36,289 bases of DNA. Source: Bacteroidales bacterium. GTDB lineage: Bacteria; Bacteroidota; Bacteroidia; Bacteroidales; WCHB1-69. This document shows, piece after piece, positions 11,952 through 34,174 of this stretch. The translations under genes and the position numbers were made by a program. The notes beneath the pieces are model-generated. The model was given only the letters and a program-made list of their open reading frames with translations. It ran no database searches and had not been told where the DNA came from. Numbering within the stretch: the stretch's first letter is position 1; each line of letters begins with the position of its first letter. The stretch is from NCBI GenBank assembly GCA_012522535.1, contig JAAYKF010000081.1, positions 1 to 36,289 on the forward strand, read 5' to 3'.

Positions 11952-12039
11952 CGGAGAGAATGGGATTCGAACCCATGAAACGCTTTCAACGTTTACACGC
12001 TTTCCAAGCGTGCGCCTTCAGCCACTCGGCCATCTCTCC
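11952..12039 (-). tRNA. tRNA-Ser (GGA anticodon)
   Basis: Reading the minus strand, an 88-nt cloverleaf is complete: acceptor GGAGAGA / TCTCTCC with discriminator G, D arm GGCCGAGTGGCTGAAGGC, anticodon stem CACGC / GCGTG with loop TTGGAAA (anticodon GGA, reading UCC and UCU), a long class II variable arm, and T arm GGGTTCGAATCCC. The 3' CCA is not encoded. No integrated element is attached to it. Confidence 0.98.
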
Positions 12040-28544: not shown

Positions 28545-29759
28545 TCACTGCCCATGTTCTTCTAAAAGTTTTTCCATATCAGTTTTTATATCAATAAATT
28601 CATCATCTGCATCCAATGAATCTAATTGATTAACAAAATCAATTAAATCCTCCTCTTTTACAGGTAGAAACTCTTCCTTGGTGTCTTTACCTAAGAATGC
28701 TTTTCTACCCAATCTGATAGCATCATAGGAGGAATATACGGATGATGCATCTACGCCACAACAATCTCTTTTGGGTTTGGGTACCCTATCCTTTCTACAC
28801 CTATGAATTCGCTTGTGCAAATTTTCAAATTTTTTAACAAGTTCGGATTTTGGTTTAACATAGGCTTGATAAAAACTACTCTCTAAAACCACATAAGGCG
28901 AGCATGAATAAATAAGCTTAGAATTTAACTGGTAATTTATACCCATTAAAGTCATTTCTCTAGCACTTTCAACTGCTCTTAATTTATTGGAAACAAAATA
29001 GAAAGCGTATGTGCCACGCCAAAACAAATCACGTATTTTAACTAAAAACTGAATTGTATCACCTCCAAAACTCTCACCTCTTTTGACACTATAAAGTATA
29101 TCTGGCATAGAGAATAGAAGCTTTTTCTTATTTGTAGAAGTACTCCCAATATAAATTATATTTTGTGTGCCACTATAATCTAAACTTTCATTATAACTTA
29201 TCAGTTTTTCCATGATATAATGGACTTGCTTAGTTTTGTTACTGTATGTTGTTTTTTGCAACAAAAACATTTCCATTGCCTTGATAGTATCATCCGTGTG
29301 TACTATTTTATCATGTATCAAATAATAAAAGGTTGTATCTAAATCTTGCACCGTTTCCCTGCTTTGTTCTATAAGTCTTTTAAAATGCTTTTTGGCTTTA
29401 TAATTTCCTTTTATCTCCACTTCATCAAGGATTTTATAACGTGGATTTAGCATAATTTCATCTCCGATGTGATATGCCAAATTCACCAATGTGTCCGAAT
29501 ATCCTGTGTGCAAACAATAGATGGTTTTAGTGTTTTTTGGAACAAAGCATTGACCGTTTTTATCCGTTTTGGTAATAAATTTACTTTTGTCAAAAACCTC
29601 TACATCAGATACAGGATTACCATACATAGCATCTAAAAATATAAATTTTTGATTCTCCTGCGAAAAAAGCTGGGATGACATGAATAGAAATAAGGTTAAG
29701 AGACCTAATCTAAATGATTTGATTGCGTCTAAATTTATATAAACAAAAAATGTACTCAT
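28545..29759 (-). CDS. exported CarboxypepD_reg-like domain protein
   Basis: A 404-residue protein. I choose ATG 29759; a GTG five codons upstream is also open. The N-terminus holds a signal-like segment (LGLLTLFLFMSSQLFSQ, about residues 24-40). Next comes a carboxypeptidase-regulatory-like beta-sandwich (about 42-115: FLDAMYGNPVSDVEVFDK ... YKILDEVEIKGNY), as found at the start of TonB-dependent receptors and many exported Bacteroidota proteins. The rest (about 120-404) is unrecognised, contains a basic Cys-rich stretch (HRCRKDRVPKPKRDCCG) and ends acidic (SLDADDEFIDIKTDMEKL). No barrel or sorting signal is apparent. It may be a periplasmic or outer-membrane-associated protein of unknown role. 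It is monocistronic with a clear promoter. Confidence 0.75.
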   Translation of the reverse strand: MSTFFVYINLDAIKSFRLGLLTLFLFMSSQLFSQENQKFIFLDAMYGNPVSDVEVFDKSKFITKTDKNGQCFVPKNTKTIYCLHTGYSDTLVNLAYHIGDEIMLNPRYKILDEVEIKGNYKAKKHFKRLIEQSRETVQDLDTTFYYLIHDKIVHTDDTIKAMEMFLLQKTTYSNKTKQVHYIMEKLISYNESLDYSGTQNIIYIGSTSTNKKKLLFSMPDILYSVKRGESFGGDTIQFLVKIRDLFWRGTYAFYFVSNKLRAVESAREMTLMGINYQLNSKLIYSCSPYVVLESSFYQAYVKPKSELVKKFENLHKRIHRCRKDRVPKPKRDCCGVDASSVYSSYDAIRLGRKAFLGKDTKEEFLPVKEEDLIDFVNQLDSLDADDEFIDIKTDMEKLLEEHGQ

Positions 29760-29834
29760 ACCTATTTTGGACACTATCCCATTAAGTGTGTAAGTTTACT
29801 CAGAGGGTCTTGCTTTATATCTTGACCCTTTCTG

Positions 29835-30138: not shown

Positions 30139-30831
30139 TCAAAAGTTGAAACCTACTCCAAATCTCCAAGAGAGGTCAAAGCGCACGGGATAGCCATTAA
30201 AGCCATAATCATCTTTTATCAATTTTATTTGTTTTTTGTCATGAACATAGACAAAACCAATAAAATCAAGTTCGGAATATAGGCTTAGCCAATCTAGCGG
30301 AGAATACTCTAGTCCTGACCTAGCATTTATCCCAAAATCGCGAACTTTTCTCGATTCCATAAAAACATTAGGATTTTGCGATTTTTCTAGCGACGGATAA
30401 TTGAAGACAACATCTTCATGTCCCAATCTATAGTTTACTCCTCCTCCATAGCGGTAATTAAATCTATCATTTATCTTTAAACACCTAATAAAACTGGCAT
30501 TTATGGTGTAATATCCACGTGCATAATATGCTTCTTTAAAATCTTGCCCATAAACTTTAGCATAGGTATTGAAATAATAGCTTCCCTCTACAGAAATAGC
30601 ATTAAGTTCTCCAATTTTCCTCTGATATTGTAACTCATAAGAGTTGAAAAAGAAGTTTTTCTGATAAGGAATTTTGCTTTTATCTCTATTTTCTAAATTT
30701 AGAAATGGAGAAGATTTGTCGAAAAAAGTGTGAAACAAGCCTGTTTGGATTGAAATTCTGTTACTAGCTTGTGAAAAACTGATATTAGGACAGGCTAATC
30801 CTAACAATAATAACATAACTAAAGCTCTCAT
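30139..30831 (-). CDS. outer-membrane beta-barrel-like protein coupled to the M4 protease
   Basis: A 230-residue protein with a signal peptide (MRALVMLLLLGLACPNISFSQ, about 1-21) and alternating strands typical of a small outer-membrane barrel (RISIQTGLFHTFFD, NSYELQYQRKIGE, AISVEGSYYFNTYA, RYGGGVNYRLGHE, LSLYSELDFIGFVYV), ending in an aromatic Phe (SWRFGVGFNF), the usual C-terminal residue for barrels inserted by the Bam complex. Its ATG shares a base with the stop of the protease gene (TAATG), so translation is coupled. It may anchor or assist the protease at the surface, but that is inference from context. Confidence 0.75.
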   Translation of the reverse strand: MRALVMLLLLGLACPNISFSQASNRISIQTGLFHTFFDKSSPFLNLENRDKSKIPYQKNFFFNSYELQYQRKIGELNAISVEGSYYFNTYAKVYGQDFKEAYYARGYYTINASFIRCLKINDRFNYRYGGGVNYRLGHEDVVFNYPSLEKSQNPNVFMESRKVRDFGINARSGLEYSPLDWLSLYSELDFIGFVYVHDKKQIKLIKDDYGFNGYPVRFDLSWRFGVGFNF

Positions 30832-32807
30832 TATTCTATAATTAATTTTTTTGTAAAAGATGAATTTTCAAATTCAAATCTAATGATATAAATACCACTA
30901 CGTAGATGGGATACATCATATTCAATTAAATTTTGACTGCTATCAACATTACCTATTAATCGACCCGTAATATCATAAATACTAATCGTAGAAGCGATTA
31001 TGTCTGGCATAGCAATAGTTATTGAATTTTTCGTAGGATTGGGGAAGACTTCAAAATTTAATTCTTTTTCAACGCCTACAGATACGGGCTCACAATCATA
31101 TTGGTTTCCAACACCAACAGCATACCACGCATTAGCTGTAGATATATGCTCATAAGAGCAATCGCCAAAAATCAATCTAGCTGCTTTTATTGTTGCCTCT
31201 CTTGAATCCTTATATTGGGACGAACTTAACAAAAATGAAGTTAGTGCAAGATAGGTTATCTTAATTGACTTATCCATTCCTATTCCAGTAACATCGTAGT
31301 AATCATTATGGTCATTATATCCACTATCACCATCTGTCAATAAATAAAACCATTTGTTTTGTACGCCTGAATTAACATGAACTCCACCTCTATCAAAATT
31401 ATAGTCTCCCATATACCAAAAAGTTCCTCCATATGTGTCTGGCTGCCCAACGTTACCTCCATAATTCTGCCCTCTGCTTTTTGGATCTTTTAAGCTACGA
31501 GACATTAATACAGAGATTGGAACATGATTCCCTAAAATCCAATCTGTATAACCTCCATCCAACATTTTTGCTTGAATTACAGTGCCGAATATATCTGCAA
31601 ACGACTCATTTAAGGCACCCGATTCAAACTCATAAGCTAAATTAGCAGTATGATAAATTACACCGTGTGTATATTCATGCCCAACAACAGATGGTTCTTC
31701 TCCAAAATACCCCCCAAAATCTGTATAACCAAAGGCAAGTTCATTGTAGGAGTTAAAAGGCTGAAAATATGCATTATGTACACTCCATTGTGTTTTAACT
31801 CTTACTTTTTTTCCTGCATTATCCTGCCCATACCTGCCAAAATAGTTATAAAAAAAATCCCAACTGTTGCTTGTATGATAATGCGTAGAAGTTTCTTTCA
31901 TATCAAAATCTCCCCAGACGTCATCAGCATCTGTAACGTCAGATATAGTCCACCAAGCACTATTAATATTATTTGGTTTTTTGGTATGAATATACCTACC
32001 ATTATCATTAGTTTTTAATATATATTTTTGAACAAAACCACCACTCCACTGATTATCAATGGTTTTAACACCATAGTTGTAAATTTTTGCGGGACCATCA
32101 TTATGTAAAGTTGAGCGATGTTTTAAAATACTACCATTATTTGCATCCACATAATAAACAATTGTTTCAAGATTTGGATAGATATAAGTTACTGGTATTT
32201 CATACGCCAATTTATATCTATGGCCTGGAATAATCATTTGTACATCTTTCATTTCATCAATAGCCCAAATTAGCTTAGTGGAGGGGAACAATGCAGTTAC
32301 ATCACCATCGTTATCGAGTTTCATCTGCTGTACCCATTCTCTATCTTCCCAAGCAAACACAACTTCCTTTTCATTTATTTCTTTTGAAAGAAGTTCCAAA
32401 GCTTCCTTACCGCTTAGTCTTGGAATATGACTTTCTTTAATTGAATCTGCAACTTTGGCGTTAATGAAACTTAAAGAGCCATCAGGTGTATAATGCTCAA
32501 TACAACCAGCTCCTTCTATTGGTATGTTCATGTACGTTTGCTGATACTTGTAATGAGAAAATCCAATAATATTATCTTTATGATAATTGGTAACGATCAT
32601 ATTGTTATTTAAATCTGGTGCAGACTGCCTATAAAGCTGATATAGGTAGCCTGGCTGAAGATTATTAGGTGTATTAAAATAAAAAAAACCACTTTCAATT
32701 GGCTCTGACAAATAAGGTTCCACCATTTCTAAATACTGTTCGTATTGTCCATAGGCAGCAGAGCACAAAAAAAACAATATTCCTAAAATGTAAATTCTAA
32801 TTTTCAT
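30831..32807 (-). CDS. M4 (thermolysin-family) metalloprotease with T9SS sorting domain
   Basis: A 658-residue secreted protease precursor. A signal peptide (about 1-20) is followed by a propeptide of FTP/PepSY type (about 35-235), then the M4 catalytic domain: VVGHEYTHGV with zinc ligands His377 and His381 and catalytic Glu378, the third ligand Glu401 in GALNESFADIFG, and the later active-site His in GGVHVNSGVQNKWFYLL. The C-terminus (about 585-658) is a type A T9SS sorting domain (VFPNPTKNSITI, YDITGRLI, HLRSGIYIIRFE, ending KKLIIE), so the enzyme leaves through T9SS and is probably anchored or released at the surface. All catalytic residues are present. The outer-membrane protein gene overlaps its stop. 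Confidence 0.95.
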   Translation of the reverse strand: MKIRIYILGILFFLCSAAYGQYEQYLEMVEPYLSEPIESGFFYFNTPNNLQPGYLYQLYRQSAPDLNNNMIVTNYHKDNIIGFSHYKYQQTYMNIPIEGAGCIEHYTPDGSLSFINAKVADSIKESHIPRLSGKEALELLSKEINEKEVVFAWEDREWVQQMKLDNDGDVTALFPSTKLIWAIDEMKDVQMIIPGHRYKLAYEIPVTYIYPNLETIVYYVDANNGSILKHRSTLHNDGPAKIYNYGVKTIDNQWSGGFVQKYILKTNDNGRYIHTKKPNNINSAWWTISDVTDADDVWGDFDMKETSTHYHTSNSWDFFYNYFGRYGQDNAGKKVRVKTQWSVHNAYFQPFNSYNELAFGYTDFGGYFGEEPSVVGHEYTHGVIYHTANLAYEFESGALNESFADIFGTVIQAKMLDGGYTDWILGNHVPISVLMSRSLKDPKSRGQNYGGNVGQPDTYGGTFWYMGDYNFDRGGVHVNSGVQNKWFYLLTDGDSGYNDHNDYYDVTGIGMDKSIKITYLALTSFLLSSSQYKDSREATIKAARLIFGDCSYEHISTANAWYAVGVGNQYDCEPVSVGVEKELNFEVFPNPTKNSITIAMPDIIASTISIYDITGRLIGNVDSSQNLIEYDVSHLRSGIYIIRFEFENSSFTKKLIIE

Positions 32808-32840
32808 ATCAAATAAATTTTAAATAAAACATTTTTTAAT

Positions 32841-32911
32841 TCTCGTAGCTACTGCTACACAAATACAACATAGTTTATCTCCGCTCCCCCACGGAAGCTA
32901 GGGCGGAATAT
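32841..32911. repeat. REP-like repeat candidate with GC-rich hairpin
   Basis: A GC-rich island in AT-rich DNA. Read on the minus strand, GCTTCC (32893-32898) pairs with GGGAGC (32883-32888) around loop GTGG, allowing one G-T pair. Some 25 bp on, GTAGC (32854-32858) pairs with GCTAC (32845-32849). The form (a short CCGT-centred hairpin followed by a TGTAG-like arm) resembles dispersed repeats seen in other Bacteroidota. Only one copy is in this window, so the repeat nature is inferred. Confidence 0.4.
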
Positions 32912-33021
32912 CATTTATAGTTATGAGATAATTCAAGAACGAAAGCTTACCAAAACAAATATAAATGCTTTGGCAGATGTTAGTATTAAAATTTATATTA
33001 GTCGATAAAGAAGCCGAAACA

Positions 33022-33037
33022 GTGTGTGTGTGTGTGT
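33022..33037. repeat. (GT)8 simple-sequence tract
   Basis: Eight perfect GT units followed by GCGTG. On the minus strand it is an (AC)8 tract inside the predicted leader of the M4 protease message, where slippage during replication could change leader length or folding. Confidence 0.9.
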
Positions 33038-33104
33038 GCGTGAAACACCAACATTTAAAGAAAATAAACCACTTTTTTGCACAAACATGTTTATATGTTT
33101 TTTT

Positions 33105-33134
33105 CAAATATACAAACATATCTAACAAAAACAA
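33105..33134 (-). promoter_or_regulatory. promoter candidate for the M4 protease operon
   Basis: On the minus strand TATATTTG (33105-33112) is a perfect -7 element with TTG (33132-33134) 19 bp upstream. The transcript would start near 33098, leaving a leader of about 290 nt before the ATG at 32807. Other -7 matches occur at 33113-33120 and 32956-32963 but lack a well-placed -33 box. Confidence 0.45.
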
Positions 33135-33286
33135 TGACAGCTCATGTTATTTTTTTGTTAATTGCCTTTGTCGGATTAACGAAGTCCATTCTAAATCATT
33201 TAGAACTATACTGTACATCTTCTAGCAGTCAGATGGAATGCTAAAGTCCTGGTTCTTATAGTCGATAGACGACTATGAAAACTATC

Positions 33287-34174
33287 TTAATTCCTTTTAT
33301 CATATCCCCACATCAATTTACTTCTTATAGTTTCGTAAAATGAATGATGTTCAAAGCGGACTATTGAGAGATAAAAAGGTGCTTTTTGTATAAGTAATTC
33401 TGAGCCTATTTCTACTGTTTCGCTACTGGAATCTACTGAAAGGGAAAAATTCTCCCCTCGCCCACTTACTTTAATTTTTACAATACTTTCATCTGAAATC
33501 ACAATTGGTCTTACCGTTAATGTGTGTGATGCTATTGGCGTGATAATCATAGCTTTAGCATTAGGAGTTAGTATTGGACCACCGCAGCTAAGTGAATATG
33601 CCGTGGAGCCTGTTGGTGTTGAAAAAACAATTCCATCAGCCCAGTAATTATTTAAAAAACAATCATCAACAACTGTTTCAAAGGAGAGCATATTGGCATT
33701 TTCACCTCTGCGAACTGTGATGTCGTTTAGGGCATATAGCTTATATTCTGGCTTGTCAATTTGGGGTGTAATTTGTAAAACTGCACGTTTGTCTAAATTA
33801 TAATTTCCGTTCACGAAATTTTCGAAAGCTTCATCAATATCTTCAATTTGGGTGTTTGCCAAAAAACCCAATCTTCCGCTATTAATGCCCATAACTGGAA
33901 TTTCACTATCGTGAATAAAGGGCAACGTTCCCAAAAAAGTGCCATCGCCACCCACCGAAACCACAACATCTGCTCTATTTTTTAGCAAATCGCCTTCATT
34001 GAAAAATTCTGCTTCAAACTCCACTTTTTGGATCTTGACAAACTCTTTATAAAGCGGTTCATAAATAAGCAGACTCCCTTTATTCTGCTGTACTTTTTTG
34101 CATATCTTTTCCACAGCTTCGAAGGAAACTGCGCTTGAGGGATTACCATAAATTGCAAATATTCTATTTTTCAT
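33287..34174 (-). CDS. nadK: NAD kinase
   Basis: The 295-residue enzyme makes NADP from NAD and ATP. The diagnostic motifs are present: VSVGGDGTFLGT (near 72-83), GINSGRLGFLAN, and the NAD-binding STPTGSTAYSLSCGGPIL. The C-terminal beta-sandwich follows with ITPIASHTLTVRPIVI. Length is normal. It is the last gene of the three-gene unit with the D15-like and CBS genes, starting 6 bp after the D15 stop. A CBS-domain gene near nadK is common in Bacteroidota. Confidence 0.96.
   Translation of the reverse strand: MKNRIFAIYGNPSSAVSFEAVEKICKKVQQNKGSLLIYEPLYKEFVKIQKVEFEAEFFNEGDLLKNRADVVVSVGGDGTFLGTLPFIHDSEIPVMGINSGRLGFLANTQIEDIDEAFENFVNGNYNLDKRAVLQITPQIDKPEYKLYALNDITVRRGENANMLSFETVVDDCFLNNYWADGIVFSTPTGSTAYSLSCGGPILTPNAKAMIITPIASHTLTVRPIVISDESIVKIKVSGRGENFSLSVDSSSETVEIGSELLIQKAPFYLSIVRFEHHSFYETIRSKLMWGYDKRN

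Follow-up and report, generated by a model that had tools for sequence, protein, structure and literature searches.

Type A cargo of the type IX secretion system (T9SS) uses PorV (PMC12618676). In the SprB-SprF and PorP-PG1035 pairs a barrel binds type B cargo, and reception and anchoring of the cargo have been proposed as the role of this partner (PMC9143113, PMC12618676). PorV and the PorP-like barrels are 14-stranded (PMC9143113). Two M4 entries, of 902 and 995 amino acids (aa), stand among the apparent T9SS-secreted proteins of Flavobacterium columnare (PMC9936825). We describe a two-gene locus on contig JAAYKF010000081.1 of a Bacteroidales bacterium (GCA_012522535.1), whose 36,289 nucleotides (nt) are referred to as the window, i.e. 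the whole stretch of DNA that was analysed. As in SprB-SprF and PorP-PG1035, a cargo gene, here encoding an M4 protease, is directly followed by the gene for its putative outer-membrane barrel. The pair is a real conserved unit. With a probability of about 0.42, we read it as a cargo-plus-partner operon, an M4 protease with a dedicated 8-stranded barrel behind a dispersed folded leader.

The protease and barrel genes form a conserved unit

The original prediction had proposed two minus-strand genes joined at a TAATG junction, and both open reading frames (ORFs) are indeed present, with one base in common. Public genomes were scanned with the protease, yielding one relative, a Fluviicola metagenome-assembled genome (MAG), and 240 genomes of that MAG's family were then searched. 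The Fluviicola protease is 49% identical in the best segment, and a 40% identical barrel directly follows its stop with an ATGA overlap. Matches to the barrel profile occur in 22 of the 240 genomes. In a separate search of the same genomes the protease profile detected M4 genes in 66 genomes, the compact type (E < 1e-140) being represented by 13 genes in 11 genomes.

Of the compact M4 genes whose contig continues beyond the stop, 12/12 have a barrel immediately downstream, which answers the objection, foreseen in the original prediction, that the barrel might not be a conserved neighbour. The thirteenth gene (L124) stops at the contig end and was excluded. One pair (L121) was detected only with the HMMER filters off (E 9.3e-7), having been missed at default filters, and L123 was dropped from the downstream-barrel counts because its protein is the same as that of L122. 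The two genes overlap by up to 25 nt or are separated by up to 6 nt, and the junction is TAATG (L062, L066, L119) or ATGA (L030, L068, L084, L120) in 7 of the 12 pairs. The two-gene system was found in 10 genomes besides that of the window.

In contrast to the compact type, none of the 28 longer M4 genes examined (those fetched whose sequence extends 400 nt or more beyond the stop, rather than all long M4s from the 240-genome protease search) is followed by a barrel. On the M4 tree the compact proteins form a single group (support 100/100), and the M4 of L134, 615 aa in length and without a barrel, groups with the long M4s. Distances between barrels correlate with those between the catalytic domains (Mantel r 0.91) and between the tails (0.82) of the 12 pairs, a result that co-inheritance alone would also give. 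A literature search covering abstracts, sections or passages returned no paper describing this protease-barrel pair, nor one on the leader discussed below.

The Fluviicola M4 gene (L030:6001-7954) is split by a frame break in the propeptide region. Behind the Fluviicola barrel, L030:8732-9655 encodes a protein with an M4 propeptide and a T9SS tail that lacks the catalytic domain, its end being 87.5% identical in DNA to the protease end. The product is possibly a secreted stand-alone propeptide inhibitor.

The protease has an intact M4 active site and a type A tail

Judged by its domains and by the HEXXH zinc site, downstream glutamate and catalytic histidine, the product of the first gene is an M4 peptidase, and proteolysis is predicted. 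FTP and M4 domains (PF07504, PF01447, PF02868) were identified, with Peptidase_M4 scoring 45.9 bits (cut-off 22.4) and Peptidase_M4_C 140.4 bits (cut-off 24.4), while the PepSY match falls slightly under its cut-off (22.8 vs 24 bits). Residues H377, E378, H381, E401 and H477, whose zinc and catalytic roles we assign by assumption from thermolysin, are invariant in 7/7 aligned M4 proteins. The type A tail exceeds the cut-offs of both PF18962 (59.1 bits vs 27) and TIGR04183 (52.2 vs 23). The M4 protease of the original prediction is thus borne out at the level of domains, and its T9SS export is predicted from domain content. There are 25 T9SS-tail matches at E <= 0.001 in the window's genome (G000), nearly all at the protein tail, which suggests that this genome encodes a T9SS. 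It also carries a second M4 gene (G000:C67:2-1399, locus L002), of the long type and cut by the contig end.

The barrel is predicted to adopt an OmpA-like fold

The N-terminus of the barrel protein contains a signal-peptide-like stretch (by eye). Neither Pfam nor NCBIfam has a match for the protein, and no solved structure matched it by sequence. An AlphaFold2 model built from two sequences shows 8 strands with short turns and long loops, at a mean predicted local distance difference test (pLDDT) score of 60.8. The closest folds are the barrels of OmpA, NspA, OprF and OmpW (Z about 15-16). With modest confidence, the protein is therefore predicted to have an OmpA-like architecture of 8 antiparallel strands, short periplasmic turns and long outer loops. 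FadL/PorV-type barrels are absent among the best 50 fold matches listed (VIA-align), an absence that excludes nothing.

Assignment of the barrel to PorP/SprF was considered and rejected: 14 members of the barrel family gave no Pfam or NCBIfam match of note to the PorP/SprF families, and 8 rather than 14 strands are predicted. The gene does lie directly downstream of a T9SS cargo gene, as a PorP/SprF gene would, whereas the cargo tail is of type A and not of type B. Nor does the model resemble a 14-stranded FadL-type barrel, given 8 strands predicted, at modest confidence, for 230 aa.

Barrels also occur next to other T9SS cargo

Seventeen barrel loci lack an intact M4 gene. Seven of these (L069, L070, L071, L076, L077, L079, L081) adjoin a T9SS-tail gene on the same strand, although they are not independent events because the loci are partly syntenic. 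Two further loci of the 17, L063 and L065, retain a remnant of the protease tail, which in L065 comprises about 14 residues (by eye), and several M4-less loci carry tandem barrels. From these T9SS-tail neighbours and remnants, the barrel family looks like an outer-membrane companion of T9SS cargo in general, and not strictly of the compact M4.

Individual loci vary in arrangement. At L063:5978-7321 a single 447-aa frame behind the protease-tail remnant joins two barrels head to tail, and tandem arrays of three and two barrels are found at L072:5951-8157 and L074:1182-2608, respectively. The diverged barrels of L069, L070, L071, L073, L077 and L081 stand beside a minus-strand gene resembling an extracytoplasmic function (ECF) sigma factor (by eye). 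In L069, L070, L071, L077 and L081 the adjoining T9SS-tailed protein is between 210 and 527 aa long, and no further domain was identified in it. A distant barrel (L083:5986-6690) lies 181 nt behind a 922-aa protein with a type-B-like T9SS tail (by eye).

The leader recurs in the genome and is likely a folded RNA

The sequence in front of the protease appears to be an undescribed, low-copy element of this genome that also precedes an unrelated gene. By the Bacteroidota consensus we take TTG-N19-TATATTTG to be the promoter; its location at 33134-33105 places the predicted transcript start near 33098 and hence gives a leader of about 291 nt, in agreement with the 290 nt originally proposed. Taken alone the motif is weak (11 occurrences in the window vs 6.05 per shuffle). 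All three copies of the element keep TTG-N19-TA(T/C)ATTTG. The (AC)8 tract noted in the original prediction is present and is not a chance run, since none of 8 units arose in 100 dinucleotide shuffles. AC runs of at least 8 units occur at three places genome-wide, all of them in copies of this one leader element.

The copy on contig C127 is 72% identical over 374 columns, from the TTAACA box at 33161 to the start codon. It precedes a gene for an unrelated 132-aa protein, membrane-like by eye, beside a pirin gene. The contig end truncates the C154 copy, which has the box, promoter and AC tract in common with the others; the break adjoins its AC tract (L169:23-46). Only these three copies were found by profile in 898,440 sampled bases of G000, and a covariance model added no convincing copy to them, either in the first 665,471 sampled G000 bases or in 679,603 bases of relatives, matches of at most 25 bits (vs 212) being dismissed. 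Leader matches in L021 (AT-rich and spanning the start of another gene) and L064 (50 nt) were likewise set aside. Plasmids and viral contigs gave no leader match.

These data bear on the proposal that the leader is a decayed mobile element, with an outward promoter incidentally driving nearby genes and an incidental structure. The dispersal of the copies, one of them at a contig end, and the ordinary energy of the whole leader would fit such an origin. However, in each of the two full copies the similarity spans the upstream box and the promoter and stops at the start codon, the sampled bases and the whole-genome AC scan revealed only three copies, and plasmids and viral contigs gave no match. 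We consider this explanation somewhat unlikely.

When folded alone, each full copy pairs AAAUUUUAA with UUAAAAUUU (closing helix P1) and AACAU with AUGUU (P1b), so that the 25 identical nt preceding the start codon are for the most part helical. Window positions 32810-32994 fold with a z of -3.06, for ends picked after the structure had been seen, and the C127 counterpart with a z of -1.32. Of 59 testable window pairs, 48 can still pair in C127. Paired columns differ less (21/118) than unpaired columns (24/66; Fisher 0.005), and 1/184 circular shifts gave a value as low. No Rfam family matches the leader at the gathering threshold, the relaxed threshold giving chance-level matches only. The leader is thus likely a folded RNA. 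The two hairpins of the original prediction fared differently: an 85-nt segment holding 32948-32975, one of four tried, folds well (z -2.97), whereas the GC hairpin is unremarkable (z -0.85). The structural RNA control suggested there gains support because the leader recurs before another gene with its promoter and the same closing helix. A mini-ORF, MFYLKFI, is not favoured as a leader peptide because its frame continues into the gene in the C127 copy; a better account of the 25 identical nt is that they supply the 3' strand of P1.

Slippage of the AC tract as an on/off switch of expression is improbable. The tract lies inside the predicted transcript and numbers 8, 11 and 11 units in the three copies, but these copies have diverged (window vs C127 about 28%), and 11/11 other paired M4 genes tested have no dinucleotide run of at least 5 units in the 500 nt upstream. 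Phase variation by this tract, which had been part of the original proposal, is unsupported.

A proposed mechanism and its alternatives

In the cargo-plus-partner operon that we favour, the conserved promoter would drive a transcript whose leader folds such that the AU closing helix occupies the bases immediately ahead of the start codon. Because these bases are covered, translation of both genes would depend on opening of the helix. Once it opens, the M4 protease would be made, and ribosomes reaching the TAATG could restart on the barrel, the conserved start/stop overlap fixing the ratio of protease to barrel. The protease is predicted from its domain content to cross the inner membrane by its signal peptide (Sec) and the outer membrane by the T9SS via its type A tail. 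The barrel would insert in the outer membrane and may offer a site at the surface where the protease or its tail docks or is retained, a role for type A cargo comparable with that of PorP/SprF-like barrels for type B. We infer a candidate interaction, either a protease-anchor or a protease-export pairing.

Several observations weigh against this scheme. The barrel model reaches a mean pLDDT of only 60.8 and derives from two sequences. Since type A cargo uses PorV (PMC12618676), its export does not require a dedicated partner. The L065 barrel is intact without the protease, with nonsynonymous divergence (dN) well below synonymous divergence (dS) relative to L066 and L068 (dS saturated), and because it outlives the protease the barrel may have a job of its own. 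The folding energy of the whole leader is ordinary (z -0.63 and -0.68), and covariation is no better than in shuffles, with one pair changed on both sides in only two full copies.

The barrel could instead be an operon passenger with its own role, such as a small outer-membrane channel, an adhesin or a lipid-modifying barrel, using peptides made by the protease with no physical partnership. Its persistence beyond the protease in L063 and L065, the diverged barrels of the M4-less tandem arrays (L072, L074) and a predicted fold like those of OmpA, OmpW and PagL are all compatible with this role. Nevertheless, we consider it somewhat unlikely, as 12/12 compact M4s keep the barrel directly downstream and other members of the barrel family also adjoin T9SS cargo genes. 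A cargo-specific shuttle acting in place of PorV, as PorP/SprF do for type B tails, would fit the cargo-then-barrel gene order, which is also that of the PorP/SprF pairs (PMC12618676). This function is nonetheless very unlikely, the tail being of type A and so a PorV client (PMC12618676), with 8 predicted strands against the 14 of PorV and PorP-like proteins (PMC9143113) and no family match of note in 14 barrel members. Least probable is protection of the cell from the protease by the barrel as surface inhibitor or immunity protein, for despite co-translation and strict linkage to one protease type, family members adjoin T9SS cargo in which no protease domain was found, and an intact orphan barrel exists.

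The pair was probably acquired

The simplest reading is that the pair was probably acquired by this lineage, because it is the sole copy among the order genomes searched, is nested among Crocinitomicaceae and stands behind a native gene block. Among 104 family and 393 order genomes the barrel was found only in G000, weak matches in G008 (25% over 115 residues within a 661-aa frame) and G173/G433 (E 3e-4) being dismissed; the barrel matches outside G000 are labelled as the same class and not the same order. The M4 tree nests the window's protease among Crocinitomicaceae, inside genes from the family of the Fluviicola MAG (sets of 6, 7 and 8 rows), and M4s of the window's own family group with the long M4s. 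Among 46 genomes the best NAD kinase match is that of G014, a member of the window's family (349.9 bits, the others reaching at most 251.0), and the order 35593 gene, BamA-like gene, NAD kinase is syntenic in G014, where a different 590-aa gene adjoins the kinase. A mis-binned contig was rejected because the NAD kinase and two further upstream genes match this same-family genome in synteny. In base composition (0.33-0.34) the pair is unremarkable. A chimeric join near 33,200 is conceivable. The combined picture pairs a type A cargo protease with an 8-stranded partner of its own and has the acquired operon captured by an undescribed, folded, start-masking leader placed before unrelated genes; in our estimation it is unlikely.

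Features of the locus are collected in Table 1. Downstream of the pair, positions 28545-29774 encode a 409-aa protein on the minus strand with no Pfam family above cut-off, and a tRNA gene is located at 11952-12039.

Table 1 Features of the protease-barrel locus and its leader in the window.
Feature	Coordinates	Strand	Remarks
Outer-membrane barrel protein, 230 aa, predicted 8 strands, no named family	30139..30831	-	
TAATG stop/start overlap	30829..30833	-	stop TAA 30833-30831, ATG 30831-30829
M4 (thermolysin-type) protease gene, 658 aa	30831..32807	-	signal peptide, FTP/PepSY propeptide, M4 catalytic domains, T9SS type A C-terminal signal
T9SS type A sorting tail, residues 587-657	30837..31049	-	
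HEYTH zinc-binding motif, residues 377-381	31665..31679	-	
Predicted 5' leader RNA, about 291 nt	32808..33098	-	similar throughout to C127 copy (L168:2091-2389)
Mini-ORF MFYLKFI, ends one base before M4 ATG	32809..32832	-	read by eye
Stretch of 25 nt identical in both full copies	32813..32837	-	
Closing helix P1, 3' strand UUAAAAUUU, just upstream of start codon	32815..32823	-	
Hairpin, GUAGC-AGUA-GCUAC core	32840..32863	-	A-U to G-U in other copy
Hairpin P2 (UGCCAAA...UUUUGGUA)	32948..32975	-	
Closing helix P1, 5' strand AAAUUUUAA	32986..32994	-	
(AC)8 tract	33022..33037	-	11 units in both other copies
Promoter TTG-N19-TATATTTG	33105..33134	-	kept in all three copies
Box TTAACAAAAAAATAACA, 5' edge of conserved leader element	33145..33161	-	
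NAD kinase, final gene of conserved native block upstream of pair	33287..34174	-	

Comparison with known systems

Should the barrel be a partner specific to its cargo, PorV would not be the only protein to handle type A cargo, and the way in which Bacteroidota retain some secreted enzymes on the cell could be tested with a two-gene system. If the leader regulates, it would constitute an undescribed RNA leader common to Bacteroidota genes that are otherwise unrelated, and would illustrate how an acquired operon comes under host control. What we describe is a conserved gene pair that was not found described and an undescribed low-copy leader, for both of which we infer the functions.

The protease resembles the T9SS-associated M4 peptidases of Flavobacterium columnare (PMC9936825) in its FTP-M4 type and apparent T9SS secretion, and differs from those 902- and 995-aa proteins in that the compact type ends directly in the tail. 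Compared with SprB-SprF and PorP-PG1035, the tail is of type A, the cargo is a protease, and the barrel belongs to another size class, with 8 predicted strands instead of 14, and matches no family. The predicted 8-strand fold (Z 15-16) is that of OmpA, the OprF N-domain, NspA and OmpW, to none of which the barrel has a sequence match. To our knowledge, no barrel of the OmpA, OprF, NspA or OmpW type is a T9SS cargo partner. The leader, in turn, resembles riboswitches and RNA thermometers in being folded, with a closing helix beside the start codon, and is set apart from them by belonging to no Rfam family and by its few copies.

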